From NCBI RefSeq assembly GCF_037040815.1, contig NZ_CP146232.1:4248001-4312000 (forward strand): 64,000 bases of DNA, in the 5' to 3' direction. Source of the stretch: Pararoseomonas sp. SCSIO 73927 (GTDB lineage: Bacteria; Pseudomonadota; Alphaproteobacteria; Acetobacterales; Acetobacteraceae). Shown piece by piece: positions 3,825 through 29,968 of this stretch; position 1 is the stretch's first letter; each line of letters begins with the position of its first letter. The position numbers and the translations under genes were made by a program. The notes below the pieces were generated by a model that was not told where the DNA came from, did not search any database, and was given only the letters and a program-made list of their open reading frames with translations.

Positions 3825-3831
3825 GTGCATC

Positions 3832-3851
3832 GGTGGCGCCTAGGCGCCACC
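3832..3851. terminator. Perfect 20-bp palindrome between convergent genes
   Basis: GGTGGCGCCT is followed at once by its reverse complement, between the stop of the plus-strand gene (3824) and the stop of DUF2493 (3840, inside the palindrome). It would form a hairpin in either transcript. It has no T run, so it is a bidirectional terminator candidate. Confidence 0.4.
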
Positions 3852-5123: not shown

Positions 5124-6185
5124 TTAGGCTGCGTGCTCCATGAAGCGTGCGACGTCCTGGGGCGCGATCTGGACCCGGATGGCCGCCCGGAGCGCCGCGA
5201 GCCCTACCAGCCGGAGGTCTTCATTGAAGTCGCCAAGCGTCGGAGACAGGGTGACTGCCTCGATGCCCGCTTCCTCCGCGCGGGTCATCAAGGTCCTCAC
5301 CGCTGCATCGCCGGCGGGATCGTCATCACGCGCGACATACAGCCGGTGCAGGGTGTCGGGGAACTGGATGGCAGCCAGATGTGCCGCCGACAGCGCAGCC
5401 GCCATCGGCATGGTTGGCAGGACGCAGCGCAGCGACAGCATGGTCTCGACGCCTTCGCCGGCCGCCATCACCGAGCCCGGCAGTCCGAAGCGCACGGCAG
5501 ACCCGAGGAGATTGCCCATCGCCCGTCTCGGTGTCTCGACGGGCGCCTTGCCTAAGGTCGCTTCGTTGAAGCCGTCGGGGTCCAGCCAGGTGCGGTGTGC
5601 GCCGGTGAGCTCGCCATTGAGGTCCGTGACGGCGGCGATGATCGCCGGCCAGATCTCGGTCGGGGAATGCTCATCGGGGCGGAAGAAGCAGCGGGGATGG
5701 AAGCGCAGCGATCCGGTTTCGTGCAAAGACGTAATGCCGCGTGCGCGCAGATACGTCTCGGCGAGTGTACGGCTGATAGGCTGTGCCATCGCGAAGAGAC
5801 GCCTCGCGGCGTCTGGCGAGCCCATTGGCGCCGCGAACGTCCTAGCCCGCCTCGACTCTCGTGCGGGTTCTGGATGCGGGAGGCTCAAGAAGCGCCGCGC
5901 TTCCTCGGCGACCTGCTTGAAGTCGGGAAGGTCGCAGGTTTCGCGAATGACATCGAGCAGATCGCCATGCTCGCCAGTCGCGGCGTCGGTCCACTTGCCG
6001 GCGGCGCCCTTGCCGGTCTGCGGCCCCTTGAGCCGCACGAACATTGAGCGGCCCGGCGTGTTGCGAACGTCGCCGACCAGCCAGTAGCCTCCCTGCCTTG
6101 TGCCGTTGGACAGATAGTGCCGGCACACGGCTTCGGCTTGGCCGGCGAGGCGGGCCGCGAGATCGGATGCGTCAAGGCTGGCCAT
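5124..6185 (-). CDS. Toprim-domain primase-like protein (DUF7146-type)
   Basis: The 353-residue protein has a Toprim catalytic core: VMAAGEGVETMLSLR near residue 240 supplies the conserved Glu, and LYVARDDDPAGDAAV near 285 the Asp-x-Asp metal site. The N-terminal region (CRHYLSNGTRQGGYWLVGDV, WTDAATGEHGDLLDVI) resembles the CHC2/zinc-ribbon-replacing region of element primases. ARTYLRARGI-type sequence (AETYLRARGITSLHETGSLR) is also typical. It probably primes or processes DNA during element transfer. The ATG at 6185 shares its A with the TGA of the upstream helicase gene (TGATG), so the two are translationally coupled. A GTG at 6188 is an alternative start. Confidence 0.82.
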   Translation of the reverse strand: MASLDASDLAARLAGQAEAVCRHYLSNGTRQGGYWLVGDVRNTPGRSMFVRLKGPQTGKGAAGKWTDAATGEHGDLLDVIRETCDLPDFKQVAEEARRFLSLPHPEPARESRRARTFAAPMGSPDAARRLFAMAQPISRTLAETYLRARGITSLHETGSLRFHPRCFFRPDEHSPTEIWPAIIAAVTDLNGELTGAHRTWLDPDGFNEATLGKAPVETPRRAMGNLLGSAVRFGLPGSVMAAGEGVETMLSLRCVLPTMPMAAALSAAHLAAIQFPDTLHRLYVARDDDPAGDAAVRTLMTRAEEAGIEAVTLSPTLGDFNEDLRLVGLAALRAAIRVQIAPQDVARFMEHAA

Positions 6186-9100
6186 CACGCTGCCTCCCGT
6201 TCAGAGATCCGCGTGACTGGATAGCGCTCCATCACCTTGGCAAGGACGCCCACGCCGGTCGCGTCGGTGGGAACGAACATCCGGAGCTTCCAGGAGATGA
6301 TCTCGTGGAACAGGCCGTAGGACCGGAGGAGATCGCGCATCGTGTCGGAGAAGCCCGATAGCTCGATGCGGTGGACGCCCATAACCCGCGCGCGATGAAG
6401 CTGGAGGCCCTCAGTGAGATCGAGGACGGTGCTGCCTGCCACCAAGGCTGCAAAGGCATCGGCAGCCGTCAGCGTGGGCGCTCCGATCGCGAGCGCGTTG
6501 GCCGCCCAGGCTGGAGACACGCGTCGCCCGATGATGCGTTCCCCGTCGTCCGTCTGGAGGCGATAGACACGTGTGCACTCATCCGGGAGACGCTTCCAGA
6601 TCGGGAGCAGGAGCCCGGCGACGACATGGATCGTGCTGTCGGTGAACTCGGGGATCTGCCCCAGTTCGCGCTGCCACGCCGCAGCGAAGACCTCGCGATC
6701 GGCCACCCGCCAATGGCTTTCCGCCATCCACGCCAGCGATGCATGGTGATGTTCCATCGGGCGGAGCAAGCGCACCCGGCGTTCGATTTCGCCGTCATCC
6801 AGCATGATGCTCGGGGCAGGCACCTGAACCGCCGCCCTGGCGGATCGGTCGTTGATCAGCAGAGCTGCACGTGGATCGGCGAGAAGCTCGAAGGCTTGTT
6901 CGAGCGACAGGGGCCTGTTGCGCTCGCGCTGGGTGATCGTCAGCAAGCGGGTTTCCGCGCCAGTGGCGGGATGCGTGTAGATGGTGTGCCGGTCGGTGAC
7001 GACGAAGCTTTCGGCTTTCAGCGTTTCCAGCCCGATGTCATAGGTGCCGCTGGCCAGTGCTCCGGCAATACGGGCATTGAGAAGCTGCTCGAAGGCGCTG
7101 AACAATATGCCCTGCAGGTCGATCGTCAGCGCCAGCAAGCGATTGAGAAAGGTCGTGATCGGCGGTAGCTCGTCGCGGATGCCTGTGTCGTCCATCAGGC
7201 TGAGGCCGGTGGCGCTCTCGAAGATTTGGAGCGGGCAGCCATCGACCTTGCCGCGGACGATCAGCAGGTAAAGTTGGCGGAGCGCGTCGCGCGCGTGGGG
7301 GCTTTCGAGATTGTCCTCGGGTCTGAAGAGGCCCTGTCCGCCGGTCTGGCGCTGGCCGCGGGTGATTGCCCCGAGCGTGTCGAGCCGGCGGGCAATGGTC
7401 GACAGGAAGCGCTTCTCGGCTTTCACGTCGGTTGCGATCGGACGAAAAAGCGGCGGCTGCGCCTGGTTGGTGCGATTGGTGCGACCAAGGCCCTGAATGG
7501 CGGCGTCGGCTTTCCAGCCCGGTTCGAGGAGATAGTGGACACGAAGGCGCTGGTTCCGCGCCGCGAGGTCAGCGTGATAGCTGCGCCCGGTGCCGCCAGC
7601 ATCACTGAACACGAGGATGCGCTTGGCATCATCCATGAAGGCGGCGGTCTCGGCGAGGTTGGCGGAGCCCGGACGGTTCTCGACCATGAGCCGATCACCT
7701 TTGCGGATGATGCGCCGCGATCGCCCGGTCACCTCGGCTACCAGGTCGGTTCCGAAGCGCTGGACGATCTGATCGAGCGCGCCAGGCACCGGCGGCAGGC
7801 TTGCGAGTTTCTCGATCAGCCGGTCACGCCGGGCGAGCGCTTCACGGCTTTTGACGGGCTGGCCGTCGCGGGTGACAGGTCGCGAAGAGAGATTGCCATC
7901 CGCGTCGGTGAACGGCTCGTAGAGCTGCACCGGGAAGGAGTTTTGAAGGTAAGACAGCACATACTCGCGCGGCGTAATGTCGACGCGCACGTCGTTCCAT
8001 TCCTCGGTCGGCACCTCGGCCAGTCGCCGCTCCATCAGTGCCTCGCCGGTGGAGACGATCTGGACGACAGCCGCGTGCCCGTCATCGAGATCGCGCTGGA
8101 TCGAGCGGATCAGCGTTGGGGTCTTCATCGAGGTCAGCAGGTGCCCGAAGAAGCGCTGCTTTGTGCTTTCGAAGGCCGAACGGGCGGCAGATTTGGCGCG
8201 CGGGTTGAGCGTGCCGGTCTCGCTGGTGATGTTCGCGGCGCGCATCGCGGCATCGAGGTTGTTGTGGATGATCGAGAACGCGCCAGCATAGGCGTCATAG
8301 ATGCGGCGTTGCTCGTCGGTGAGCGCGTGCTCAACCAGCTCGTACTCGACCCCGTCATAGGACAGGGATCTGGCGGTATAGAGGCCGAGGGCGCGAAGAT
8401 CGCGGGCCAGCACCTCCATCGCTGCGATACCGCCGGCCTCGATGGCAGCGACGAATTCGGCCCTAGTGGCGAACGGGAAATCCTCGCCGCCCCACAGGCC
8501 GAGACGCTGGGCATAGGCGAGATTGTGGACAGTGGTGGCGCCTGTCGCCGAGACGTAGACGATTCGGGCACCGGGGAGGGCGTGCTGGAGCCGCAAGCCG
8601 GCACGGCCCTGCTGCGACTGAGCGACATCGCCTCGTTCTCCCTTTCCGCCGCCGGCGTTCTGCATTGCATGGCTCTCGTCGAAGATGATCACCCCGTCGA
8701 AATCGGAGCCCAACCAATCGACGATCTGGCGGACGCGCGAAACCTTGTCGGCCTTCTCATCGGACCGCAGCGTGGCATAGGTGGTGAATAGGACGCCTTC
8801 CGGCAGTGTGATCGGCCGCCCCTGCGGGAAGCGGGAGAGCGGCGTCACCAGCAGGCGTTCCATGTCCAGGGCCGACCAGTCGCGCTGCGCATCCTCGATC
8901 AGCTTGTCCGACTTCGAGATCCAGACGGCCTTGCGCCGACCGTGCAGCCAGTTGTCGAGGATGATGGCGGCGGACTGGCGGCCCTTGCCCGCGCCCGTGC
9001 CGTCGCCGAGCATGAAACCGCGCCGGAATCGGACGGCGGATGCCGCGTCGTCAGGTGCAGCAGAGACGACATCGAACGTCGCGTCGATGGTCCAGGCGCC

Positions 9101-10519
9101 GCTGAGGAAGCCCGTATGGGCCTCGCCGGCATAGATCACGGTTTCGAGCTGCGCGTCCGACAGTACGCCCTCGGTGATGAGCCGTTCGGGCAGGCGTGGA
9201 CGATAGCTCGGCTTGGGCGGTGCGACCGACGCCATGGCCGCCGATTGCACGAGCTTGGTCGGATGGGCTTGAGAGCCAGGAATGCGGATCGTCTGAAGTC
9301 CGTATTCCTCGTAGATGGCGTCGGTCAGCCGACCATGTTCGGCCAGCTTCCAGTCGAGGGTCTCATAGGCGAGGTCCAGGTAAAACGGCTCCTCGAGTGA
9401 TGACCTCTGCGGCGCGTTCGCGGTGCCGCGCGCAATCGGACAGGCAACTTGCTTCAGCGCCATCGCCGACGGCGCCGGCAGGGCGACCGAACCCGCCACT
9501 GTGAGCCGTGGGGGAACGTGTTCCGTGACCCAGCCCATAAGCGTCTGCGTGTCGACTGCTTGACCCTGTGATGCGGGAAACCGGGCCGGATCGTCTGCCG
9601 GCAGCTTGTCGAAGACGGTGAGCCGCGTCTCGATAGTGGTGCCGTGCCTGGCGTAGACGGCGCCCTCGATGCTCGCGGTGAATACGACGCGGCCGCGCTC
9701 CTGCAGTCGGATGAACGCCTCGCGCCAGGCTGGATGCTCCGGGCTGACATTGGCGCCGGTGATGGCCACCAAGCGCCCGCCCTCGGCGAGGCGGGCGAGC
9801 GCGGATGCGATGTGTCTCAGAGCGGCGTCGGCCATGCGACCGGAGACGTTCGCCATCGCCGAGAATGGCGGGTTCATCAGCACGACCGACGGGACCATAG
9901 CCGGGTGCAGATGATCGTCGATCTGCGCTGCGTCGAAGCGCGTGACTGCGACCGCCGGGAAGAGGGAGGAGAGGAGGCTGGCGCGGGTTTCCGCCAGTTC
10001 GTTGAGGATCAAAGTAGCGCCCGCAATCTCGGACAGAATGGCGAGCAAACCGGTCCCGGCGGACGGTTCGAGCACACGGTCGGCAGGTGTAATAGCGGCC
10101 GCGCGCGACGCTATGAAGCCGAGCGGGATGGGCGTCGAGAATTGCTGGAACGTCTCGCTTTCGAGGGAGCGGCGGGTGTGCGTGGGAAGCAGACCGGCGA
10201 CTCTGGCGACCAGCGGCAGGGCAGCGGCCGGAGAGCCGGCTTTGTGCAAAAGCGCTTTGCCGTATTTGCGGAGGAAGAGAACGGTCGCTGCCTCGCAGGC
10301 GTCGTAGGCCAGCTTCCAGTCCCAGGCTCCGGCAGCGTCGCTCGCGTTGAAGCTCGCTTCCATCGCGTCACGAAGCAGGGTGGCGTCGACACGTCGGCCG
10401 GCTTCGAGATGGACGAGGATGGATCGGGCGGCATCGAGCAGGGCCGCCATTCTGTCGACGCGTGGCAGATGAGACGCCGGCCTATGTTCTTGCGCGCATG
10501 GCGCGGAACGATCGTGCAT
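6185..10519 (-). CDS. Methyltransferase-Strawberry notch-like helicase fusion
   Basis: This 1444-residue protein joins two parts. Residues about 130-330 form a Rossmann methyltransferase with RVLEPSAGTGLLAIL (motif I, near 150) and VVLMNPPFSAM (NPPF near 216). Residues about 430-1250 form a superfamily 2 helicase of the Strawberry-notch type. Its Walker A is LGDGTGAGKGRQSAA near 505, its Walker B is IIFDESHAM near 610, and QGLGRTNRTNQ near 1010-1020 is motif VI. Such fusions are characteristic of large alphaproteobacterial conjugative elements, where they are probably involved in DNA maintenance or protection; the exact activity is unproven. The NPPF motif suggests N6-adenine or N4-cytosine methylation. 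The gene is preceded by one copy of the repeated leader (10520-10615). An internal ATG at 10450 is an alternative start. Confidence 0.85.
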   Translation of the reverse strand: MHDRSAPCAQEHRPASHLPRVDRMAALLDAARSILVHLEAGRRVDATLLRDAMEASFNASDAAGAWDWKLAYDACEAATVLFLRKYGKALLHKAGSPAAALPLVARVAGLLPTHTRRSLESETFQQFSTPIPLGFIASRAAAITPADRVLEPSAGTGLLAILSEIAGATLILNELAETRASLLSSLFPAVAVTRFDAAQIDDHLHPAMVPSVVLMNPPFSAMANVSGRMADAALRHIASALARLAEGGRLVAITGANVSPEHPAWREAFIRLQERGRVVFTASIEGAVYARHGTTIETRLTVFDKLPADDPARFPASQGQAVDTQTLMGWVTEHVPPRLTVAGSVALPAPSAMALKQVACPIARGTANAPQRSSLEEPFYLDLAYETLDWKLAEHGRLTDAIYEEYGLQTIRIPGSQAHPTKLVQSAAMASVAPPKPSYRPRLPERLITEGVLSDAQLETVIYAGEAHTGFLSGAWTIDATFDVVSAAPDDAASAVRFRRGFMLGDGTGAGKGRQSAAIILDNWLHGRRKAVWISKSDKLIEDAQRDWSALDMERLLVTPLSRFPQGRPITLPEGVLFTTYATLRSDEKADKVSRVRQIVDWLGSDFDGVIIFDESHAMQNAGGGKGERGDVAQSQQGRAGLRLQHALPGARIVYVSATGATTVHNLAYAQRLGLWGGEDFPFATRAEFVAAIEAGGIAAMEVLARDLRALGLYTARSLSYDGVEYELVEHALTDEQRRIYDAYAGAFSIIHNNLDAAMRAANITSETGTLNPRAKSAARSAFESTKQRFFGHLLTSMKTPTLIRSIQRDLDDGHAAVVQIVSTGEALMERRLAEVPTEEWNDVRVDITPREYVLSYLQNSFPVQLYEPFTDADGNLSSRPVTRDGQPVKSREALARRDRLIEKLASLPPVPGALDQIVQRFGTDLVAEVTGRSRRIIRKGDRLMVENRPGSANLAETAAFMDDAKRILVFSDAGGTGRSYHADLAARNQRLRVHYLLEPGWKADAAIQGLGRTNRTNQAQPPLFRPIATDVKAEKRFLSTIARRLDTLGAITRGQRQTGGQGLFRPEDNLESPHARDALRQLYLLIVRGKVDGCPLQIFESATGLSLMDDTGIRDELPPITTFLNRLLALTIDLQGILFSAFEQLLNARIAGALASGTYDIGLETLKAESFVVTDRHTIYTHPATGAETRLLTITQRERNRPLSLEQAFELLADPRAALLINDRSARAAVQVPAPSIMLDDGEIERRVRLLRPMEHHHASLAWMAESHWRVADREVFAAAWQRELGQIPEFTDSTIHVVAGLLLPIWKRLPDECTRVYRLQTDDGERIIGRRVSPAWAANALAIGAPTLTAADAFAALVAGSTVLDLTEGLQLHRARVMGVHRIELSGFSDTMRDLLRSYGLFHEIISWKLRMFVPTDATGVGVLAKVMERYPVTRISEREAA

Positions 10520-10615
10520 GGGGAAGACCTCGAGGAGAGCGGGAACAGGGCGAGCCCTCGGCCGCTCTCTCTCGACCGTCCGGGCTCAAACCCGTCACGG
10601 CCCCCTCTGCCTCTC
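10520..10615 (-). promoter_or_regulatory. Repeated structured 5' leader, copy 1 (before the helicase gene)
   Basis: On the minus strand this leader contains GAGAGGCAGAG (10605-10615), CGTGACGGGTT (from 10599), a GAGAGAGAG loop closed by CGGTCG/CGGCCG, and an outer GAGCCC/GGGCTC stem, then the start codon region. The first two blocks recur before parB and ardC. This copy is about 24 bases longer than the others and its final CCCGTC arm is degenerate. Confidence 0.5.
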
Positions 10616-10637
10616 GACGTGCGAGTGGCAGGCTGAA

Positions 10638-11282
10638 TCAACCGAAGCGCCGGCCCGCTTCGGTGAAGGTGTAGCCGTTCGCCGCAATCGCCTCGTCGAC
10701 CTCCTCGTCCGAGGTCAGATGCTCGTATTCCCTTTCGAGCTGGCGGTAGAGCCAGCGGGCCAGATCACGGAGCGCTTCCGATACGGCATCTTCTGCATCG
10801 GCGGTCATGTCCTGACCTACGGGACTGTCGCGATCAACCATGATGGCCATGCACTGCTCGTGATAGTAGCGCCCCCGCTGAGTCATCGTGGCTCGGAGCT
10901 GGTAGAAGTTGCGCCGCTGAACGGCCTGGAGGGTATCGGCGATCCGGTGAAGCGCGGTATCCGTCGGTGCATAGGCCCGGATGCGGCCGGCGGCGGATCT
11001 CGCGTGTCGGTAGTCGCCCTCGAAGCAGGCTCCGTCGCCCTGGCTCCAGAAGCCCGAAAACCAGATGCAGGGTTTCAAGCGGGTGCTACCGCCGAACAGT
11101 CGGACAGGGCGCCTCCTGAGACTGATGCCCAGGATCATGCAAATGCGTTCGAAGTCGTCATAGACGAACTCGAACCAGTCATAATCGAAGCCACCCTCGC
11201 GGTACCATCCGCGCGCGGCGTCCTTCGCCGCAGTGGAGAGTTCGTCGAGGCGATAGACGATGGTTTCGATGATCTCAGGCAT
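10638..11282 (-). CDS. Element-conserved protein often annotated as an antitoxin of a stability system
   Basis: The 214-residue product starts MPEIIETIVYRLDELSTAAK at an ATG with GGAGGT eight bases upstream. Conserved stretches are ARGWYREGGFDYDWFEFVYDDF, CIWFSGFWSQGDGACFEGDY, RGRYYHEQCMAI and the C-terminal YEHLTSDEEVDEAI. I recognise this as a widespread element protein that databases label antitoxin of toxin-antitoxin stability system; I know of no experimental basis for that label, and no toxin-like partner is obvious next to it. Its start overlaps the end of the upstream gene by eight bases, so the two are co-translated. Confidence 0.7.
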   Translation of the reverse strand: MPEIIETIVYRLDELSTAAKDAARGWYREGGFDYDWFEFVYDDFERICMILGISLRRRPVRLFGGSTRLKPCIWFSGFWSQGDGACFEGDYRHARSAAGRIRAYAPTDTALHRIADTLQAVQRRNFYQLRATMTQRGRYYHEQCMAIMVDRDSPVGQDMTADAEDAVSEALRDLARWLYRQLEREYEHLTSDEEVDEAIAANGYTFTEAGRRFG

Positions 11283-11691
11283 CGGGATTACCTCCATCCA
11301 CCGCGGCGGCGAGCCAGCCATCGGTGTCGATCCATCCGAGGGTCTCACCCGTGCCGAGGTCGAGGACGTGCGCACCGCCACCGAACGCATTGAGCCGGGG
11401 CCGCGAGCAGGTATTGGCGTATTGGAAGCCCCAACGGCCCTTGAGGCTAAACTCCGTCGCGCAGAGTTTCACGAACTGGATCAGCCGTTCTGGATCGCCG
11501 GAGACGTCATCCCGTAGCCAGAGCTGCGAGCCGCCGTGCTCCGGCTGGATGGAGACAAGGAAGCCCTCCGACGGCGGTTCTTCCGACGCGCCGGCTTCGG
11601 ACAGGGCATTGTAGAGATCGAGTGCGCGCGCGGCGTTCTGAGGTGTGCCGACGTCGAGCAGGCACGAGAAGTGCGTGAAAAAGTCTGCCAT
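11275..11691 (-). CDS. Conserved element protein, unknown function
   Basis: A 138-residue soluble protein: MADFFTHFSCLLDVGTPQNA at the N-terminus, GFLVSIQPEHGGSQLWLRDD in the middle and GRWGFQYANTCSRPRLNAFG later. A GGGAG ribosome site precedes the ATG at 11691. I know no function for it. The composition, start signal and eight-base overlap with the following antitoxin-annotated gene support a real gene in a two-gene unit. A terminator lies immediately upstream (11706-11737), so this pair is separated from parB, with its promoter presumably within or just after the terminator region. Confidence 0.65.
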   Translation of the reverse strand: MADFFTHFSCLLDVGTPQNAARALDLYNALSEAGASEEPPSEGFLVSIQPEHGGSQLWLRDDVSGDPERLIQFVKLCATEFSLKGRWGFQYANTCSRPRLNAFGGGAHVLDLGTGETLGWIDTDGWLAAAVDGGNPDA

Positions 11692-11705
11692 GACAGTCTC
11701 CCACG

Positions 11706-11737
11706 AAAATAAAAAGGCCCGGCGTGGCGACCGGGCT
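11706..11737 (-). terminator. Rho-independent terminator after parB
   Basis: On the minus strand GCCCGG, an eight-base loop, CCGGGC and then TTTTTATTTT form a classic intrinsic terminator, about 60 bases beyond the parB stop and 15 bases before the next gene's start. Confidence 0.75.
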
Positions 11738-11796
11738 GATGGAAGGGGCGTGTGAGGAAAGATGCGGGACCACCGGAGCGGTCCCGCCTGGATCGG

Positions 11797-13941
11797 CTAC
11801 TCGGCTGCGATGGCCGGGAGCGGCTCGGTATCTTCGTCCGAAGCTTCCTCGTCGGCTGATAGGAACGCCGGCAGATCCACGGAGCTTGCCTCAGCTTCGG
11901 GTTCGGCCGTTTCGGAGGATGTGTCCGTGTCGGCGAGCCGCAGCGGCTCGGGCAGCCACCGGGCGTCGGCGAGAAGTCGTTCGGCTTCCTTGGCCATTTC
12001 AGCTTTCTTCAGATGCTCTATGAGCTGCGCCGCCCGATCTCCCGCGCCCTCACGCACGGCCTCGACGATGCGTCGCTTCGGCACCCGGCCGAGATAATTG
12101 TCGACCGAAGGACGCCATCCGGCCTCCACCATGTCGAGACCAGTCGCCCGCGCGAGCCGGTCGGCCTGGGTGAGACGGCGTTCGAGCCCGTCCTGGGACA
12201 CGCCGTTCCCGCCGTAGGGGTTCGGCTTCTCGTAAAGCGCGTTGACGCCGAAGCTCACGCAATGAGCGAGCAGCGCGAGTCGGCTCGCATCGTCGAGTGC
12301 CGACAGCCAGTCCCAGAGCGCCTCATCGTCCTGCGGAAGATCGGCCTTCCAGGCGTCCTGACGCTCCGCGATCGCGCATGCGGAGGGGCTGTCCTTGAGG
12401 TCGGCGGCCTGCGCGGGGAAGAAGACGTGTCGCACGGACGCTTCGAGGCATCCGCCGCCGGTGCTGGTGCGCTGGAATGTGTCGATGACGAGCTTGTGCA
12501 GCAGCGCCGTCAGCGCGATCTGTGGGTTACTCGCCACGGCGTCGCGCAGCGCGAGCGTGCGATGGGCGGTCAGTTCGATCACCAGGCGCTCGGGCAACGG
12601 CTTGATAACGTCGTCCTCGTCGTCCTCGCTTTCGATCGGCTGCCCGCCGACCGTGATGACGGTGCGGGACGTGCCGCTCGGTCCGGGTTCGCCGGCTTGA
12701 GCGCCGGTCGCCGCCGTAGCGCCACCGGTCTCGTCGTCGGGCAGAACGAGGGGCGCCTCGTCGTCCGGGCGAACATAGCCGCGGTCGGCCACGAGCCTGC
12801 CGTCCGCGCCGATGCTCACGAAGACGCCAGCACGCGTGATATCACAGGGATCAAAGATCACCGACCGGGTGTCGAGCTCATCCAGCTGGGCCTCGATTTC
12901 GCCGAGCCGCGCATCGACCTCGTCTGGCAATTCGTCCGCACCTTCACACTCTGCTTCGAGCCGCTGATACTCAGCGTTGAGCGCGTCGATCGTCGCCTGT
13001 TCGTCAGCCGATCGTTCGGCGGCGACACCGTCGATCTGGCGCAGACCGTGGGTGTGACCGTAGGGGAAGTCGGCAGCGACCTCGATCCACTTCCAACCTT
13101 CGGCCGCGATGGCCTCAGCCTCTGTCTTCAGCTTGGCGGCAACCAGGGTATCGAGCAGGGCGACATCGGCGAGCCAGCCGCCATCGTCCTGTTGGAAGAG
13201 ATCGCGCAGGACCGTGCCGCCAGCGGCTTCATAGGCATCGAGCCCGACGAACATGGCGCGGCGGTCCGACGCGCGCACCGTCTTCTCGGTCAGCATGCGG
13301 CGGATCTGATAGGGCTCCTTGGACCAGGAGCTTGCGATCGTCTCCCAGACCTGTTCCTGCCTCGGATGGTCGGCGCTGACCGTGAAGGCCATCAGCTGCT
13401 CCAGCGTCATGCCGTCCTCGGCATAGATGTCGAGAAGCTTCGGCGAGACGCCGGCAAGACGCAGACGCTGCTTCACCACATGAGCGGAGGTGAAGAAGGC
13501 CGCGGCAATTTCTTCCTCGGACTGGCCCTTGTCGCGCAGCGCCTGGAACGCCCGGAACTGATCGAGCGGGTGGAGCGGGGCACGCTGAAGGTTCTCTGCC
13601 AGGGAGTCGTCTTCGGCCAGAATCGGCGTGGCGGGATCGCGCACCACGCACGGCACTGCGGCTGTCTTGGCGAGGCGCTTCTGCTTCACCAGACGCTCGA
13701 GCGCCCGGTAGCGACGCCCACCGGCCGGGATCTCGTACAGGCCGGTCTCTGCGCCATCGGCATCGATGATAGGACGGACGTTGAGGCTCTGCAGGAGACC
13801 GCGGCGGGCGATGTCCTCGGCGAGTTCCTCGATCGAAATGCCGGCTTTGATGCGCCGGACGTTCGCCTGCGAGAGCGTGAGCTTGTTGAAGGGGATGTCG
13901 CGCGATGGCGAGAGGATGATCTTCTGAATGGCAGTGGCCAT
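11797..13941 (-). CDS. ParB/RepB/Spo0J-family protein, long element form
   Basis: The 714-residue product starts MATAIQKIILSPSRDIPFNK. The ParB N-terminal domain is clear: LTLSQANVRRIKAGISIEEL, GLLQSLNVRPI, YEIPAGGRRYRALERL (box I, near residue 82) and SLAENLQRAPLHPLDQFRAF (box II, near 127). A helix-turn-helix follows (EEEIAAAFFTSAHVVKQRLR). The remaining 450 residues include an acidic segment near 420-470 and helical sequence typical of element ParB proteins, about twice the length of chromosomal ParB. It may aid element maintenance or act as a regulator; no ParA partner is in the window. A copy of the repeated leader precedes it and an intrinsic terminator follows, so it is a single-gene unit. 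Confidence 0.87.
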   Translation of the reverse strand: MATAIQKIILSPSRDIPFNKLTLSQANVRRIKAGISIEELAEDIARRGLLQSLNVRPIIDADGAETGLYEIPAGGRRYRALERLVKQKRLAKTAAVPCVVRDPATPILAEDDSLAENLQRAPLHPLDQFRAFQALRDKGQSEEEIAAAFFTSAHVVKQRLRLAGVSPKLLDIYAEDGMTLEQLMAFTVSADHPRQEQVWETIASSWSKEPYQIRRMLTEKTVRASDRRAMFVGLDAYEAAGGTVLRDLFQQDDGGWLADVALLDTLVAAKLKTEAEAIAAEGWKWIEVAADFPYGHTHGLRQIDGVAAERSADEQATIDALNAEYQRLEAECEGADELPDEVDARLGEIEAQLDELDTRSVIFDPCDITRAGVFVSIGADGRLVADRGYVRPDDEAPLVLPDDETGGATAATGAQAGEPGPSGTSRTVITVGGQPIESEDDEDDVIKPLPERLVIELTAHRTLALRDAVASNPQIALTALLHKLVIDTFQRTSTGGGCLEASVRHVFFPAQAADLKDSPSACAIAERQDAWKADLPQDDEALWDWLSALDDASRLALLAHCVSFGVNALYEKPNPYGGNGVSQDGLERRLTQADRLARATGLDMVEAGWRPSVDNYLGRVPKRRIVEAVREGAGDRAAQLIEHLKKAEMAKEAERLLADARWLPEPLRLADTDTSSETAEPEAEASSVDLPAFLSADEEASDEDTEPLPAIAAE

Positions 13942-14024
13942 GACAGGTCTCCGCGACGGGCGGCCGGGAGCCTCTCTCCCGACCTCCAACCCGTCACGAA
14001 AATCGGCGCAGCCCTCTTCCTCTC
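13942..14024 (-). promoter_or_regulatory. Repeated structured 5' leader, copy 2 (before parB)
   Basis: Reading the minus strand: GAGAGGAAGAG (14014-14024), CGTGACGGGTT, a CGGGAG-AGAGG-CTCCCG hairpin, then CCCGTC, which can pair with the earlier GACGGG, and GCGGAGACC leading to the ATG. The copy before ardC has the same layout to within one base of length. Confidence 0.6.
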
Positions 14025-14079
14025 ATTGCTTCCGGAAAGCCGGAACGCCGTAGAGCCGGAAAGACGGGACTGCGCCGAT
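14002..14079 (-). terminator. Long inverted repeat downstream of ardC
   Basis: ATCGGCGCAG at 14002-14011 is the exact complement of 14070-14079, and a further CCC/GGG pairing (14012-14014 with 14066-14068) extends it past one bulged base. In the ardC transcript the second arm is followed by TTTTC. The loop is long (about 50 bases, with its own CCGGA-type repeats), so this could be a terminator or a regulatory site. It overlaps the parB leader. Confidence 0.4.
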
Positions 14080-14101
14080 GCTTGGAGTGGAAGCGAGTGG
14101 G

Positions 14102-15070
14102 TCAGGCTGCCTGGCGTTCGGCCTCGGGAGTGGTGGCAATTGCCTGACCCGGTTCGCCCGCATGTGGGGCGAAGGCCAGCAACCAGTCCGCTGCCTTGCT
14201 CGCCTGACTGGCTGCACGGACGATGGCGCGATTGTCCTCGCGCAGGACCTCGGCCCAGGATCCGATGTAGTCGGCGTGGCGGACGGTCGGGGCGATGCCG
14301 AGGGCGGCGCAGCAGAAGGCCGAGGCGATTTCGGCCACCAGTTCCTCGAACGCGTATTTCTTGGAGCCGAACGATCCTGTGAGATCGCGTCCGAGCCGAT
14401 GGGCTGCGCCGCTGGCATGGGCGCATTCATGCAGCGCCGTGCGATGCCAGTTGATGGGCTCGAAGAAGGCCTGGGGCGGCGGCACCATCACATAGTCAGG
14501 TGCCGGCGCGTAGTAAGCCCGGTCGCCGCCGATGCGAAAGTCGATTCCGCTCGCCCGGATCAGCGCGTCGACCGTGGGCTCGATCAGCCCGGGTTCGGGC
14601 GCCGGCACAGCGGCCACGAGGTCCTCGGGCAGGCCGTCACACTGAGCGACGTTGAAGACCGTGAAGCGCTTCAGGAACGGGATCGCCTGTGCCTCGTCGC
14701 CGGTCTCTCGCGCACGACGGCGTTCATCGTCCGGCACGAAGCGGTCGGCATAGACGACGGTGGTGCCGCGCTCGCCCTTGCGGACATTGCCGCCAAGCGA
14801 CAGGGCCTGGCGGAAGGTCAGCCAGCCTTGGCTCGGGAAGCCGTGCGAGATCACCGCGCCCCAGAGGATCAGCACATTGACCCCCGAGTAGCCGCGCCCG
14901 GTTGCGGCGTTGGTCGGCATGGCGAGCGGCGCCTTGGCCGCGGCCGTCCCCCAGGGCTGGACCCAGGGCAACCGTCCGGCCTCCAGTTCGGCCAGAATCT
15001 TGCCGGTGATTTCGTCATACAGGCTCTTCCGGTCGGCGCTCGGCCGGCCGCGTGGATCAAGTTTCGACAT
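14102..15070 (-). CDS. ArdC-like antirestriction protein with zincin metallopeptidase domain
   Basis: The 322-residue product has the ArdC N-terminal ssDNA-binding domain (KSLYDEITGKILAELEAGRL, PWGTAAAKAPLAMPTNAATG, YSGVNVLILWGA) followed by a zincin-like domain. The metal-binding helix is WHRTALHECAHASGAAHRL near residue 210; HECAH is the HExxH motif, with a downstream Glu in FEELVAEIASAFCC. Related plasmid proteins bind single-stranded DNA and protect incoming elements from host restriction. That fits a conjugative element, especially one that carries its own restriction-like cargo. It is the last backbone gene before the cargo junction and has a copy of the repeated leader. Confidence 0.87.
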   Translation of the reverse strand: MSKLDPRGRPSADRKSLYDEITGKILAELEAGRLPWVQPWGTAAAKAPLAMPTNAATGRGYSGVNVLILWGAVISHGFPSQGWLTFRQALSLGGNVRKGERGTTVVYADRFVPDDERRRARETGDEAQAIPFLKRFTVFNVAQCDGLPEDLVAAVPAPEPGLIEPTVDALIRASGIDFRIGGDRAYYAPAPDYVMVPPPQAFFEPINWHRTALHECAHASGAAHRLGRDLTGSFGSKKYAFEELVAEIASAFCCAALGIAPTVRHADYIGSWAEVLREDNRAIVRAASQASKAADWLLAFAPHAGEPGQAIATTPEAERQAA

Positions 15071-15153
15071 CGCGGGTCTCCGCGACGGGTGCCGGAAGCC
15101 TCTCTCCCAGCCTTCAACCCGTCACGGCACAGCCGGCCTGCACTCTCACTCTC
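15071..15153 (-). promoter_or_regulatory. Repeated structured 5' leader, copy 3 (before ardC)
   Basis: The minus strand reads GAGAGTGAGAG (15143-15153), CGTGACGGGTT, a GGGAG-AGAGG-CTTCC hairpin, ACCCGTC pairing back to GACGGG, and GCGGAGACC before the ATG. Compared with the parB copy, one stem base pair changes from G-C to G-U, which keeps pairing. Confidence 0.6.
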
Positions 15154-15325
15154 GGGGGGCGTTGCGGGGGCTCCCCGCTAGACACGGGTCGGCAGAGACA
15201 AAGTTCAGCCGCAGGGGAAGGCTTTCCCCTCAGATCCTGGGAATGCTCACGATACCAATCAGCGGACCATTGACTACAAATCTGCCGAGGCTGATGATGC
15301 CAATCAGCCGGTAGTCGGAGATGTC
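15154..15325 (+). promoter_or_regulatory. Backbone/cargo junction with a candidate promoter
   Basis: This is the divergent space between ardC and the cargo. TTGACT at 15270-15275 and GATGAT at 15293-15298, 17 bases apart, make a plausible sigma-70-type promoter for the plus-strand defence block. A 7-bp inverted repeat (GGCTGAT at 15289-15295, ATCAGCC at 15303-15309) overlaps the -10 and could be an operator. Confidence 0.4.
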
Positions 15326-16546
15326 ATGTTCCAGCGATTCGTTGAGCGGAGGGCGGAGGAGGCGCTTGCAGACACGCCGGTCGTCCTCATCGTCGGACCG
15401 CGCCGGGCCGGCAAGACGACGCTGGTGCGAAAGATGGGAGAAACCGGCTGGACCTATAGCACACTCGACGACCAGACCGTCCTCGAGGCCGCCCAGTCCG
15501 ACCCGGCCGGGTTCATCCGAGGTCTGGATCGCGCCATCATCGACGAGATCCAGCGCGCGCCCAATCTGTTGCTGGCGATCAAGAAGACGGTCGACGAAGA
15601 TTATCGCCCGGGCCGTTTCCTGCTGACCGGCTCGGCCAATGTGCTGACCTTGCCGCGCGTCGCTGACAGCCTCGCTGGCCGGATGGAAACCATTCGGATG
15701 CTGCCCTTGGCTCGGGCGGAAATCGAAAGCCGAGCACCGACCTTTCTGGAACGCCTGTTCGAGGGGACTTTGGAGAGTCAAAGCGCCGCCATTGTCGGCG
15801 ACGAGTTGGTCCAGCTTGCGTTGCGCGGCGGCTTTCCTGAGGCGATTAGTCGTGACAGCGAACGCCGGCGACAAGACTGGGCGCGTGCGTATCTCACCTC
15901 GATCCTGACCCGTGATCTGCGCGATATCGCTGAAGTTGAGAAGCTCACCGAACTCCCCAAGTTCGTGCGTCTTCTCGCCGAACATTCCGGGCAGCTCGTC
16001 AACTATTCCCAGCTTGCGAGCGGCATCAACGTCAACCACAGGACCGGTCAGCGCTATGTCGGTCTGCTCGAACAGGTGTTCCTGATCGCGACCCTGCAGC
16101 CATGGTTCACCAATGCGCTCAAGCGCATCGTTAAGACGCCCAAGCTGCATTTCCTTGATTCCGGCCTGCTGGCTGCCGCGCGCGGGCTGACTTTCGATCG
16201 GATCAAGGCGGATCGGGGGGCATTTGGCGCGCTGCTCGAGAGCTTTGTGTTCTCCGAAGTGCTGAAGCTGATGACGGCCTCAGACCTGCGTCTGACGCCA
16301 CATCATTTCCGCGATCGGGACATGCGCGAGGTCGACATCGTGCTCGAGCGCGATGACGGCATGATTGCCGCCATCGAGGTGAAGGCGAGCGCAACGGTCA
16401 AGGCCAGCGACTTTTCGGGCCTGCGCGCATTGGCCGAGGCTTGTGGGGACCGCTTCGCGTTTGGCGTCGTCCTCTACGACAGCACGGATGTCGTGCCGTT
16501 CGGAGACCGCCTGGCGGCCGCGCCACTATCGTGTCTGTGGGCGTGA
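15326..16546 (+). CDS. AAA+ ATPase with DUF4143 C-terminal domain
   Basis: The 406-residue protein has an AAA-type N-terminal domain: VVLIVGPRRAGKTTLVRKM (Walker A near residue 25), AIIDEIQRAPNLL (Walker B near 71) and FLLTGSANVL (sensor region near 97). The C-terminal DUF4143 region shows LDSGLLAAARG, FGALLESFVFSEVLK and REVDIVLERDDGMIAAIEVK. The last stretch (D...E-x-K) resembles a PD-(D/E)XK core, so DNA binding or cleavage is possible but unproven. The start has a GGAG site. The helicase gene begins ten bases after the stop, with its ribosome site in the gap, so this gene heads the cargo operon. Genes of this family are widespread and also occur outside defence loci. Confidence 0.8.
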   Translation: MFQRFVERRAEEALADTPVVLIVGPRRAGKTTLVRKMGETGWTYSTLDDQTVLEAAQSDPAGFIRGLDRAIIDEIQRAPNLLLAIKKTVDEDYRPGRFLLTGSANVLTLPRVADSLAGRMETIRMLPLARAEIESRAPTFLERLFEGTLESQSAAIVGDELVQLALRGGFPEAISRDSERRRQDWARAYLTSILTRDLRDIAEVEKLTELPKFVRLLAEHSGQLVNYSQLASGINVNHRTGQRYVGLLEQVFLIATLQPWFTNALKRIVKTPKLHFLDSGLLAAARGLTFDRIKADRGAFGALLESFVFSEVLKLMTASDLRLTPHHFRDRDMREVDIVLERDDGMIAAIEVKASATVKASDFSGLRALAEACGDRFAFGVVLYDSTDVVPFGDRLAAAPLSCLWA

Positions 16547-16556
16547 GGAAAAGCCG

Positions 16557-19500
16557 ATGAAGATAATCGACAACACCTCACTGCTTCTCGGCGATGACCT
16601 AAAGGCGACGTTGGGGCGTGGCGCTCGGATCAAAATCGCAGCGTCCTGCTTCTCGATCTATGCGTTCGAGGCCCTGAAGGCGGAGTTTTCGAAGGTCGAA
16701 AGCCTACAGTTCATTTTCACAGCCCCGACCTTCGTCGCGACGGATGTGACTGACCGCCTCCGCAAGGAGCGGCGAGAGTTCTTCATCCCAAAGACGACGC
16801 GAGAGCGGGGGCTCTACGGCACCGAGTTCGAGATTCAGCTTCGCAACAAGCTCACGCAGCGCGCAGTCGCGCGCGAGTGCGCCGAATGGATACGAAAGAA
16901 GGCTCGCTTCAAGTCGAACAAGACTAAGGCACCGATGCAGCAGTTCATTCACGCAGGATCGGAAGCCGGCGACGTCGCCTACATGCCGATTAGCGGGTTC
17001 ACGGCCGTTGACCTGGGCTATCAGAAGGGCGACGCCGTCTCGAATCTCGTTACGCGCATCGACGATGCGGCGCACACACAGGTCTATCTGCAACTGTTCA
17101 ATCAGATCTGGAACGATGAGGACAAGGTCAGCGACGTCACCGCCGCCATCTGCGACCACATCGAGTCCGTCTACCAGGAAAATTCACCTGAACGGATCTA
17201 CTTCCACATCCTCTACAACCTCTTCCAGGATTTCCTCGAAGAGATTGATCAGGATGCGCTGCCAAACGATCTGACCGGCTACAAGGACAGCCTCGTCTGG
17301 AACAAGCTGTTCAACTACCAGAGGGATGCTGCCACTGGTATCATCAACAAGCTGGAGATGCACAACGGGTGCATTCTGGCGGACAGCGTCGGCCTCGGGA
17401 AAACCTTCACCGCGCTCGCGGTCATCAAATATTACGAACTGCGCAATCGGTCGGTGCTCGTCCTGTGCCCGAAGAAGCTTGCGGACAATTGGCGCAACTA
17501 CAACACCAATCTGACCACGAACATCTTCGCCAAGGACCGCTTCAACTACGACGTACTGAGCCATACCGATCTCTCCCGCACCTCAGGAGAGGCGTTCGGG
17601 ATTCCGCTGAACCGCGTGAACTGGGGTAACTACGATCTCGTCGTCATCGATGAGTCGCACAATTTCCGGAACAACGATGTCTTTAAGGATCGGGAGACCC
17701 GCTACCAGAAACTGATGAACAAGGTCATCCGCGCCGGCGTGAAGACCAAGGTTCTGATGCTGTCGGCGACGCCGGTGAACAACCGGTTCAACGACCTGCG
17801 CAATCAGCTCGCGCTGGCCTATGAAGGGGATTCAGAAAACCTCAGCCGCAAGCTGAAAACCAAGACCGGGATCGAAGAGATTTTCCGGCGCGCCCAAAAG
17901 GCGTTCAATGCCTGGTCGGATCTGCCGCCGCACGAGCGAACCGCAGCCGCAATCCTGAAGGCCCTGGACTTCGATTTCTTCGAGATGCTCGATGCCGTGA
18001 CGATCGCCCGGTCGCGCAAGCATATCGAGACTTTCTACGACACCAAGGATATCGGAAAATTCCCCCAGCGCCGAAAGCCGCTGTCGTACCAATGCCCGAT
18101 CACTCATCGCTCCGACGTGCTCGGCCTCAACGACATCTTCGGCAGCCTGTCGGTGCTCAAGCTCGCTGTTTATGCCCCGATCAGCTACATTCTGCCGAGC
18201 CGGCTGCGGAAGTACGAAGAAATCTACGACACCCAGGTGGAGGGTGGTCGCGGCAAGCTGCGCCAGGCTGACCGCGAGCGTAGCCTTCAGGCGCTTATGA
18301 CCACCAACCTGCTCAAGCGGTTGGAGAGTTCGGTCGAAGCCTTCCGCCTCACCCTGCGGGCGCTCAGCGGCAACATCGCGCAGACCCTTAAGGCGATCGA
18401 GACCTTTGAGCGCACGGGCGCCGCCGCGAGTGTGACCGACCATCTCGGCGATCCCGGTTTCGATCCCGACGATGATGATCTGAATGGTCTGGATGAGTTC
18501 ACGGTCGGCAAGAAGATTCAGATCAGTCTGTCGGACATGGACCTTCCATCGTGGAAGCACGACCTCACCGCGGATCTCACGCTGATCGGTGACCTGATCG
18601 CCTCGATGGACAAGGTGGTTCCGGAGGATGATGCCAAGCTGCAGCATCTGAAGGACGTCATCACCCGCAAGGTCGCTGACCCGCTCAACCCCGGCAACCG
18701 CAAGGTTCTGATCTTCACCGCCTTCGCAGACACGGCGAAGTACCTCTACGCCAATTTGGCGCCGGCCTTTCTTCAGTCGCACGGCCTGCACTGCGGCATG
18801 GTCACCGGCTCCGACGCGCCGAAGAGCACGCTGAAGAAAAGCTATGACTTCCAGTCCCTGCTGACCCTGTTCTCGCCGCGCGCAAAGGAGAAGCATCTGG
18901 TCCTGCCGCACGAAACCGGCGAGATCGACATCCTTATCGGAACGGATTGCATCTCCGAGGGCCAGAACCTCCAGGATTGCGACTATCTGATCAACTACGA
19001 CATTCATTGGAACCCGGTGCGGATCATCCAGCGGTTTGGCCGCATCGACCGTATCGGGTCTCCCAATGCGCAAATCCAGCTCGTCAACTATTGGCCGGAA
19101 ATCTCGCTGGACGAGTACATCAATCTCAAGGAGCGCGTCGAAAACCGCATGATGATCGCCGACGTCACGGCGACCGGCGACGACAACGTGCTGACGGCCA
19201 AGAGCAGCGACATTGCCTACCGGAAGGAGCAGCTCAAGCGGCTCCAGGAAGAGGTGATCGAGCTGGAGGACGTGCGGACCGGGATTTCCATCACGGATCT
19301 CGGCCTCAACGATTTCCGTATGGACCTTCTGAACCACATCAAGGAGCACGGCGATCTCGAGCATCTGCCCAACGGCATGCACGCGGTTGTGCCGGCACAG
19401 CCGGCGCTCGGGCTGAAGCCCGGTGTGATCTTCGCGCTGAAGAACATCCATGACAGCGTGAACATCAACCAGCAGAACCGGCTGCACCCTTATTACCTCG

Positions 19501-19829
19501 TCTATGTCGGTCACGGCGGTGGGGTCATCATCGACCATACCGAGGTGAAGTGCTTGCTCGATCTGATCCGCACGAGCTGCAAGGGCCAGGCAGAGCCGAT
19601 CCGGGCGGTCTGCCAGCTGTTCAACGAGCGGACGCAGGACGGCCGGAAGATGGAGCATTGCTCCGCCCTTCTGAGTGCGGCGATCCGCTCGATGATAGAG
19701 GTCAAGGAAGAGAAGGACATTGACAGCCTGTTCAGCGGTGGGCGGACCACGGCGCTGGTCCACACCATCGCCGGGCTCGACGATTTCGAGCTGATCGCCT
19801 TCCTCGTGATCGAGGAGGGGGCCACATGA
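16557..19829 (+). CDS. SNF2-type helicase with phospholipase D-like N-terminal region
   Basis: This 1090-residue protein starts MKIIDNTSLLLGDDLKATLG. The N-terminal 200 residues resemble the PLD-like part of restriction-associated helicases (ARIKIAASCFSIYAFEALK), but I do not see an intact HKD motif. The helicase core has ILADSVGLGKTFTALAVIKY (Walker A near residue 275), LVVIDESHNFRN (DESH near 364), LMLSATPVNNR and IIQRFGRIDRIGSPN (motif VI near 828). Such proteins translocate on double-stranded DNA. The stop overlaps the DUF4391 start by four bases (ATGA). With DUF4391, Mod and Res it makes a gene set I have seen beside type III-like restriction genes; the helicase may act in target scanning or DNA destruction, which is inference. 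Confidence 0.85.
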   Translation: MKIIDNTSLLLGDDLKATLGRGARIKIAASCFSIYAFEALKAEFSKVESLQFIFTAPTFVATDVTDRLRKERREFFIPKTTRERGLYGTEFEIQLRNKLTQRAVARECAEWIRKKARFKSNKTKAPMQQFIHAGSEAGDVAYMPISGFTAVDLGYQKGDAVSNLVTRIDDAAHTQVYLQLFNQIWNDEDKVSDVTAAICDHIESVYQENSPERIYFHILYNLFQDFLEEIDQDALPNDLTGYKDSLVWNKLFNYQRDAATGIINKLEMHNGCILADSVGLGKTFTALAVIKYYELRNRSVLVLCPKKLADNWRNYNTNLTTNIFAKDRFNYDVLSHTDLSRTSGEAFGIPLNRVNWGNYDLVVIDESHNFRNNDVFKDRETRYQKLMNKVIRAGVKTKVLMLSATPVNNRFNDLRNQLALAYEGDSENLSRKLKTKTGIEEIFRRAQKAFNAWSDLPPHERTAAAILKALDFDFFEMLDAVTIARSRKHIETFYDTKDIGKFPQRRKPLSYQCPITHRSDVLGLNDIFGSLSVLKLAVYAPISYILPSRLRKYEEIYDTQVEGGRGKLRQADRERSLQALMTTNLLKRLESSVEAFRLTLRALSGNIAQTLKAIETFERTGAAASVTDHLGDPGFDPDDDDLNGLDEFTVGKKIQISLSDMDLPSWKHDLTADLTLIGDLIASMDKVVPEDDAKLQHLKDVITRKVADPLNPGNRKVLIFTAFADTAKYLYANLAPAFLQSHGLHCGMVTGSDAPKSTLKKSYDFQSLLTLFSPRAKEKHLVLPHETGEIDILIGTDCISEGQNLQDCDYLINYDIHWNPVRIIQRFGRIDRIGSPNAQIQLVNYWPEISLDEYINLKERVENRMMIADVTATGDDNVLTAKSSDIAYRKEQLKRLQEEVIELEDVRTGISITDLGLNDFRMDLLNHIKEHGDLEHLPNGMHAVVPAQPALGLKPGVIFALKNIHDSVNINQQNRLHPYYLVYVGHGGGVIIDHTEVKCLLDLIRTSCKGQAEPIRAVCQLFNERTQDGRKMEHCSALLSAAIRSMIEVKEEKDIDSLFSGGRTTALVHTIAGLDDFELIAFLVIEEGAT

Positions 19830-20530
19830 CGGCAGCGTTCTTCGATTATCCCAAGGCTGCAGCATTCGGCCGGGTTGTCCCCAAAAGCCGCATATACGAG
19901 CACGCTGGTGCCAGCACGGCGCTCCGGGATCTGTTCGTCACCCAGGTCGATCAGATCGTCTGGAAGTACAAGCTGGCGCCGGAAACGACCAACCTCGCGG
20001 CGACGAAGGCCGTCAGCGAGATTCAGGTGTTCGGCATCAGCATGCGCTCCAGCAAGCTCGACGAAGATGTGTTGCGCGCGATCGACCGCGCGATCCCGTT
20101 CCCGCTGATCTTCGAGCTCACATGGTCCGGAAAGCGCAAGGCGGTGGCCGCTTTCAAGCGGCCGAGTGATGCCGATTCCACGAAGTGGGTTGTCAGCGGC
20201 TATTTCGCGACCGATTGGGCACCTGACGACACGGCGCGTCGGCCGTTGCCGGTCGCCCTCAATCTCGGCGGTCTCTACGACTCCCTCATCACGGCGCTGA
20301 TGCCGAAGTCCGCCGCCGAAGCGGAGCAAGCCGGTGAGGACATCCAGGCGCGTGTGGCGCGGATGGAGGCGATCCGGGCCAAGGCGCGGGAGGTGGACCG
20401 GATCAGGGCCCGCCTGGCCCGCGAGAAGCAGTTCAACAAGCGCGTGGCGATCAATGCCGAGTTGCGCGCCGCACGGCAGGAACTGGAGCGCCTTTCTAGC
20501 GGCGCTCCCGTCACTGCTGCGACGAACTAG
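19826..20530 (+). CDS. DUF4391 domain protein
   Basis: A 234-residue protein beginning MTAAFFDYPKAAAFGRVVPK. Features of DUF4391 are the N-terminal FVTQVDQIVWKYKLAPETTN, VSEIQVFGISM, PFPLIFEL and RKAVAAFKR, followed by a charged C-terminal coiled coil (about residues 165-230, rich in R, E, A and K). Function is unknown. The family is nearly always found between an SNF2-type helicase and a type III-like methylase, as here, so it is probably a subunit or adaptor of that complex. Its start lies within the helicase stop (ATGA overlap), and 13 bases separate its stop from the Mod start. Confidence 0.8.
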   Translation: MTAAFFDYPKAAAFGRVVPKSRIYEHAGASTALRDLFVTQVDQIVWKYKLAPETTNLAATKAVSEIQVFGISMRSSKLDEDVLRAIDRAIPFPLIFELTWSGKRKAVAAFKRPSDADSTKWVVSGYFATDWAPDDTARRPLPVALNLGGLYDSLITALMPKSAAEAEQAGEDIQARVARMEAIRAKAREVDRIRARLAREKQFNKRVAINAELRAARQELERLSSGAPVTAATN

Positions 20531-20543
20531 TAAGGGAATGACG

Positions 20544-22646: not shown

Positions 22647-22656
22647 GGGAGTGGCC

Positions 22657-25695: not shown

Positions 25696-25738
25696 AGTTG
25701 AGGCGGTTACCTGATGCAGTGAGCGCAGGGGAGATTCA

Positions 25739-29103: not shown

Positions 29104-29210
29104 CCAGCTGGAGACGCTGGAGGCCGCAGGGACTCCCGGGTCATCCAGCTTCCTCAGCTGCGCGAATAGATATTTCACTTTTTCGATGTGCTGGACGGAC
29201 AGCCGATCAC

Positions 29211-29936: not shown

Positions 29937-29968
29937 CGAAAAACTCCGTGGGATTTTGATGGCTGTCG

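Follow-up and report, generated by a model that had tools for sequence, protein, structure and literature searches.

A conserved predicted RNA fold ending at the ribosome sites of parB, ardC and helicase genes in alphaproteobacterial conjugative elements

Structured elements ahead of antirestriction or DNA-processing genes of mobile elements are already known as a kind, represented by radC RNA, STAXI and EGeRS1. The genes associated with radC RNA (RF01754) are radC, antirestriction and integrase genes. STAXI (RF01728) is, in the accessible part of its description, a recurring structure in the neighbourhood of SSB, antirestriction and integrase genes (PMC2864571). For the pLS20 family of Bacillus, the available portion of the EGeRS1 report places structured copies immediately 5′ of the ribosome sites of establishment operons, that of ardC included, and has an EGeRS1 leader stop read-through of upstream transcription (PMC8708921). 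Frpo/ssi-like single-stranded promoters, as far as the accessible text of their source goes, precede leading-region anti-defence genes (PMC11541004). Here, we describe a leader that precedes the parB, ardC and helicase genes in a 64-kb stretch of the Pararoseomonas sp. SCSIO 73927 genome (contig NZ_CP146232.1, positions 4,248,001 to 4,312,000; hereafter the window, meaning the whole stretch of 64,000 nucleotides (nt)), and that recurs, in two related types, across alphaproteobacterial plasmids and genomes.

Three copies lie on the minus strand of the window, at 10520-10615 (helicase), 13942-14024 (parB) and 15071-15153 (ardC). A first-pass annotation made from the letters had proposed them, and its coordinates proved exact, with every named block found on that strand. 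It also took all three to share one architecture; this holds for the parB and ardC copies (type P), whereas the helicase copy is a distinct subtype (type H). From 5′ to 3′, type P consists of a GAGNNAGAG box, a linker, a stem P1 (CGUGACGGG/CCCGUCRYG), an asymmetric 5′ bulge, a variable stem P2 capped by a GAGAG loop, GGAG and the start codon, about 85-100 nt altogether. The box is nearly invariant in an alignment of 28 sequences. Of 182 type P matches, 155 contain GAGAG in their hairpin portion, with GAGAGAG (112) and GAGAGGC (25) as loop letters; these 182 come from the searches behind alignments A2 and A3, include two fragments of other matches, and leave aside the 40 loci L151-L190, which were scanned separately with covariance model R1 and are likewise outside A3. 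The exact sequence CGTGACGGGTT occurs three times in the window, and the pattern GTGACGGGTT-N4-20-GAGAG hits the three leader sites alone there (seven overlapping matches; mean of 0 in 100 shuffles), with zero matches in the rest of the genome. A covariance model of the parB and ardC copies and 26 relatives gives these two scores of 93.9 and 77.7 bits; up to E 1, the host genome contains just two further matches, of about 18 bits.

Compared with the described systems, the leader looks like a new family. The first-pass annotation had suspected a published alphaproteobacterial leader motif, for which we found no match in Rfam or the literature. The window has no Rfam match at gathering score, neither radC RNA nor STAXI matches region 10400-15300 at E≤5, and three weak matches at E≤1 in seven relatives all fall away from the leaders; a literature search whose scope took in few of the subscription papers found no description of the motif. 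Like the new leader, radC RNA is a structured leader in Proteobacteria with several copies per replicon, and the new leader in turn precedes antirestriction genes and, as a weak variant, RadC (PF04002). However, radC RNA is 149 nt long, unrelated in sequence and made of several hairpins. Identity with it was rejected: above-threshold hits occur in one of 20 leader-bearing genomes, at other places. Genome G506 holds both families apart, with new leaders on contig C1 and radC RNAs on the 1.1-Mb contig C4 (loci L191, L196 and L197), where we observed four radC RNAs, scoring 86-143 bits, in a span of 40 kb and on a single strand. STAXI, in the portion of its description at hand, consists of repeated pseudoknots in Enterobacteriales. 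EGeRS1 is similar in its working, going by the available part of its description, as several structured copies stand directly ahead of the ribosome sites of establishment genes, ardC among them; the same description sets it apart as a Gram-positive element of 420-751 bp with branched structures. Frpo/ssi sites share hairpins, several copies and a position before leading-region anti-defence genes, but, in the text available, are built round -35/-10 elements and used as single-stranded DNA, whereas the new leader shows sense-strand G-U pairing and a fold that ends at the ribosome site.

An RNA fold, one of the two readings offered by the first-pass annotation, is strongly supported by covariation and by wobble pairing on the sense strand. 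In A2 (70 distinct sequences), 97.3% of cells in the type P structure are paired, against 89.2% when shuffled; in A3 (114 distinct sequences from a different search), the values are 96.6% and 90.0%, and both alignments show changes on both sides in 13 of 19 pairs. None of 500 shuffles equalled any measure, and structures slid along the alignment reach at most 50.9%. Out of 1289 cells on the type P sense strand, 211 are G-U and 15 are A-C. Selection on double-stranded DNA or on the complementary strand would give G-U no advantage over A-C on the sense strand; the excess of G-U therefore points to the strand of the messenger RNA (mRNA) as the folded one. When about 95 nt are folded alone as RNA, the stability of the parB copy is exceptional (z -4.7, none of 200 shuffles equally stable), while the ardC copy forms the structure with ordinary stability (z -1.0, 33/200) and the helicase copy is also ordinary (z -1.3, 23/200); trimmed to hairpin and start, parB (z -3.7) and ardC (z -3.3) are each below all 200 shuffles.

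The same data bear on a double-stranded operator or promoter with a common regulator, which the first-pass annotation had kept as an alternative and in which the box and the P1 arm would be spaced like promoter elements. The near-constant type P linker, which measures 15-17 nt in all but six of 157 parsed matches (151), would suit such a site, and the type H linker is shorter by about 10 nt, or one helical turn. Yet an operator leaves unexplained the compensatory changes, the G-U pairs and the fixed join to the ribosome site; moreover, some leaders begin directly after an upstream stop codon. A sigma-70 promoter upstream was rejected, as no positional signal for it was seen in three gene groups. 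We regard the operator as the least probable of the accounts weighed here.

Hardly better placed is a single-stranded DNA element, whereby the transferred strand would fold on entry and serve as promoter or priming site like Frpo/ssi; we consider this very unlikely. The leaders do precede genes of the leading-region type, as Frpo-like sites precede anti-defence genes in the accessible part of PMC11541004. In the eight elements with a located relaxase, out of 14 (the window element and 13 plasmids), the relaxase always shares the strand of the leaders and, along the shorter path, lies downstream of them. Six were located by protein search, one by annotation and one in the window element; MOB typing lists a relaxase for some of the other six. 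Leading-region genes transcribed in the direction of the transfer origin would be expected to show such an order. With the nick orientation taken from the relaxase order, however, the transferred strand would be the template, on which the 211 sense-strand G-U pairs become A-C. In addition, no -35/-10-like elements or AT-rich hexamers were seen in the hairpin on inspection of the window copies and the 28-sequence alignment, and the fold ends at the ribosome site. When identical stretches of 57-58 nt are folded as RNA and as DNA, the parB copy makes P1 and P2 as both, but the ardC copy only as RNA.

The helicase copy represents, on sequence evidence, a related second type of the family. Its linker is 6 nt (to GTGACGG) versus mostly 15-17 nt in type P, and its outer stem is closed by CCCTGTTCCCG (10540-10550), which the first-pass annotation had left unnamed; the inner stem that it did name, CGGTCG/CGGCCG, agrees with the core fold and with the inner helix seen in the model-fitted alignment of type H. 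Type H has a longer hairpin with the same box and loop, and an extra CTCTC ahead of the ribosome site. In alignment A5 (35 distinct, model-fitted rows, with six of the loci L151-L190 represented), 86.2% of cells are paired versus 75.7% when shuffled, double changes occur in 18 of 21 pairs, and slid structures reach at most 63.8%. Within the inner helix 88.1% of cells pair, with changes on both sides in four of five pairs, and the sense strand carries 155 G-U and 16 A-C among 710 cells. The CTCTC could pair with the GAGAG loop, forming a pseudoknot, or with the 5′ box. The letters of the loop/CTCTC pseudoknot are nearly invariant, so that covariation speaks neither way, and folds of six whole leaders disagree. 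A type H leader also precedes an ArdB antirestriction gene (PF03230) in locus L106, with look-alikes in L132 and L178.

Extra copies in related elements were found in number by pattern, model and BLAST searches, and point to Alphaproteobacteria. An order-level sample has a simple pattern in 72 of 250 genomes, some by chance, and the full motif in 23 of 30 loci fetched. R1 matches 20 of 289 genomes in a class-level sample (E≤0.001) and 21 of 249 in a phylum-level sample (E≤0.01), the latter all of the same class; both counts include the window's own genome. Across species genomes, the pattern GTGACGGG-N15-45-CCCGTCRYGGAG yields at least 120 stretches. Among the matches listed, R1 matches 111 of 120, of which 107 are named Alphaproteobacteria (seven orders, or order unstated) and four are unplaced records; among these same listed matches, the nine R1-negative stretches comprise eight from outside the class and one alphaproteobacterial (L136). 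Absence outside Alphaproteobacteria rests on these listed stretches and on Escherichia coli genomes, which gave no match to the parB leader, rather than on the phylum-level sample. BLAST matched 127 plasmid records with the parB leader, 128 with the ardC leader and 14 with the helicase leader. Phage origin was rejected: the parB leader has no BLAST match in phage records, and among 15 viral-contig stretches with the pattern, strong matches (≥60 bits) occur in L201, L202 and L212 only. In ParB homologues collected regardless of leader, all 18 matches from other genomes with at least 50% identity over at least 232 residues have the leader directly upstream, against one of 11 other fetched ParB loci (the ten without include two short fragments of 85 and 109 residues, at 56-58% identity); the leader thus marks one ParB clade.

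Downstream of the 182 type P matches stand genes for ParB (80), ArdC (46) and DUF932 (28), other or truncated genes (20), or none that was found (8). The other genes include an AlpA-like regulator (PF05930), DUF2958 (PF11171), RadC (PF04002) and families with no Pfam match; the leaders of RadC (21-22 bits, weak) and DUF2958 (40 bits) are variants without the GAGAG loop. Five of ten leader-gene proteins given to Pfam had no match. One such family, of 182-185 residues, follows type P leaders in L145 (2480-3028, minus strand), L082, L098, L110, L073 and L072 (one member was put to Pfam, with no match), and may represent a new establishment gene. On a 6.5-kb plasmid of Sphingomonas, a leader occurs together with an unannotated DUF932-like frame (L038:3337-4390; 320 codons at 3428-4390).

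What these genes share is the join between fold and ribosome site. The distance from GGAG to the start codon, looked for 3-25 nt downstream, is 7, 8 or 9 nt in 169 of 174 measured matches of the 182. The last two P1 bases before GGAG are GC in 96 of 160 parsed matches, AT in 43, GT in 14, AC in six and TC in one. Their partners are nearly fixed (U, G), and hence 139 of 160 have one Watson-Crick and one wobble pair. On a quick ParB tree, five to six of seven independent pairs formed by the R of P1 agree and none disagrees (sign test median 0.031), and four to six of seven formed by the Y agree, again with none disagreeing (median 0.0625). This joint change is consistent with selection holding the stability next to the ribosome site at a set level; the two letters may instead be recognised by a factor.

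Instead of opening a transcript, the leader often appears to be intercistronic, inside a longer message. Among 59 consecutive leader-gene pairs there are 35 in which the second leader begins between -1 and 106 nt past the first gene's stop, so it can lie inside a polycistronic mRNA (36 pairs are listed with gaps below 200 nt, one being an artefact of overlapping calls). Gene orders among the 59 include ArdC-ParB (21) and DUF932-ParB (20). A same-strand open frame of at least 130 codons, called mechanically, ends within 300 nt upstream in 118 of 162 matches and within 60 nt in 45; upstream genes this close leave little room for a separate promoter. All 56 loci with two or more type P matches have them on one strand. 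Over whole records the exception is plasmid NZ_CP017782, where six of seven matches share a strand and one lies opposite, 58 kb away; NZ_CP107561 has a weak antisense echo.

We consider it probable that the leader works in cis, as a structured RNA within mRNAs of alphaproteobacterial conjugative elements. The sequence comparisons show a conserved predicted fold, in two related types, that ends at each gene's ribosome site; most likely it acts on translation start, and it probably sets the translation strength of establishment genes. The hairpin would display or gate each ribosome site, in many cases inside a polycistronic mRNA, and would thereby impose one common setting on ParB, ArdC, DUF932, helicase, ArdB and certain further genes; we infer that the leaders control several genes together. 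The box and the GAGAG loop are putative contacts of a common factor. If this were a repressor encoded by the element, new recipients would lack it at first, and a burst of product could follow just after transfer. More specifically, one element-encoded RNA-binding regulator might read the GAGAG sites of all leaders, repressing anti-defence and DNA-processing genes in the donor and, by its absence from the recipient, releasing them in a coordinated post-transcriptional burst, a proposal that we make tentatively and hold to be on the doubtful side. Pairing of the GAGAG loop with the 3′ end of 16S RNA was also considered and is not favoured, as the loop has mostly G where A pairs better.

Two other accounts also place the action in the leader RNA. 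A transcription attenuator or antiterminator has a parallel in Bacillus, where the EGeRS1 leader blocks upstream read-through in the accessible part of its report (PMC8708921). Here, the G+C stem is followed by GGAG and no U run in the window copies and the 28-sequence alignment, and inspection of type P revealed no second, mutually exclusive terminator stem; we consider attenuation unlikely. The main rival is a constitutive translation insulator, in which the hairpin alone shields the ribosome site from upstream sequence and a moved gene keeps its expression with no trans factor, as with the ribozyme-hairpin insulators of synthetic biology. It overlaps the favoured account except for the factor. 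An insulator would explain why the structure ends at the ribosome site, and suits leaders that travel with genes in differing orders and on a 6.5-kb plasmid. It needs no conserved unpaired letters, yet the GAGNNAGAG box is nearly invariant and GAGAG is kept in most matches, so we see a factor-free insulator as possible without expecting it.

Several points weigh against the favoured account of a translation-level RNA. A2, A3 and A5 were fitted to models and tend to favour them, and among the rows of A5 are a type P leader that does not belong there (L083:168-271) and some weak matches. Alignment by MAFFT alone gives double changes at just six of 19 type P pairs (A1) and at none of 14 predicted pairs in type H. 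A1 and A2 exclude seven of the 30 loci L008-L037 that have no closing arm; A1 also excludes the truncated copy L033:2967-3026, and A2 the own-genome duplicates L041 and L066. The parB copy, as said, folds as DNA too. In 23 of the 59 consecutive pairs the gap is wider, and a promoter could lie there. The ribosome site is beside the stem, not inside it, which makes repression by simple sequestration not obvious. Lastly, plasmid NZ_AP027146 has two leaders and no annotated DUF736, ArdC or strawberry-notch helicase in its incomplete gene table, so that none of the three is a clear partner; DUF736, tried as a partner, was rejected on this annotation.

The window resembles a portion of an integrative conjugative element. 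The same strand to its left encodes an integrase, TrbI, VirB8, TrbL and TrbE-like proteins, TraG, a relaxase of the DUF3363 type and a replication initiator. Followed with transcription, and so towards the relaxase, the genes come as ArdC, ParB, two small genes, helicase, Toprim, a YspA-like gene (PF10686) and DUF736. The features of the three leaders are collected in Table 1. The two small genes between parB and helicase (10638-11691, minus strand; 214 and 138 residues) have no Pfam match. After parB, at 11714-11787 (minus strand), a sub-threshold Yfr1 match (E 0.24) with two G+C hairpins is more likely a terminator. A second conserved block stands upstream of most ArdC and DUF932 leaders compared (15155-15230, minus strand, in the window; loci such as L015, L043, L012 and L037), consisting of GGGGAAAGCCTTCCCC, a changing hairpin and GCGGGG-AGA-CCCCGC-AACGCCCC, and may be a second structured element or the preceding gene's terminator. 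Defence-like cargo adjoins the anti-defence genes at 16443-30868, with restriction-modification-like genes (16443-25695), a SIR2-like and HerA-like pair (25739-29103) and a SMODS nucleotidyltransferase (29969-30868).

Table 1. Leader features and the genes that follow them, in window coordinates.
Feature	Position	Strand	Basis
ardC leader box GAGAGTGAGAG (GAGNNAGAG)	15143..15153	-	inspection; kept in 28-sequence alignment
ardC leader P1 5′ arm CGTGACGGG	15118..15126	-	inspection, exact count, covariation
ardC leader P2 hairpin GCTGGGAG / CTTCCGGC, loop AGAGG	15091..15111	-	inspection, folding, covariation
ardC leader P1 3′ arm CCCGTCGCG	15081..15089	-	inspection, covariation
ardC ribosome site GGAG (first G shared with the 3′ end of P1)	15078..15081	-	inspection, spacing statistics
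ArdC antirestriction protein gene (PF08401 + PF18818)	14102..15070	-	Pfam
parB leader box GAGAGGAAGAG	14014..14024	-	inspection
parB leader P1 5′ arm CGTGACGGG	13990..13998	-	inspection, exact count, covariation
parB leader P2 hairpin GGTCGGGAG / CTCCCGGCC, loop AGAGG	13962..13984	-	inspection, folding, covariation
parB leader P1 3′ arm CCCGTCGCG	13952..13960	-	inspection, covariation
parB ribosome site GGAG	13949..13952	-	inspection, spacing statistics
ParB-like gene (PF02195, 714 aa)	11797..13941	-	Pfam
Helicase leader (type H) box GAGAGGCAGAG	10605..10615	-	inspection
Helicase leader (type H) core hairpin, GAGAGAG loop	10540..10599	-	folding, type H alignment
Helicase core stems: outer CGTGACGGG / CCCTGTTCCCG (imperfect in window copy), middle GAGCCC/GGGCTC, inner CGGTCG/CGGCCG	10540..10599	-	
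Helicase leader CTCTC	10535..10539	-	in 32 of 35 distinct type H alignment rows
Helicase ribosome site GAGG	10528..10531	-	inspection
Strawberry-notch-type helicase gene (PF13872, PF13871)	6185..10519	-	Pfam

Early anti-defence expression helps decide whether a conjugative element survives on entry. F-like plasmids use single-stranded promoters for this purpose, and we know of no mechanism described for alphaproteobacterial elements. A conserved and easily searched RNA offers a handle on the control of anti-defence genes and a route to new establishment genes, and makes the leader a target in rhizobial, sphingomonad and rhodobacterial plasmids and integrative conjugative elements.

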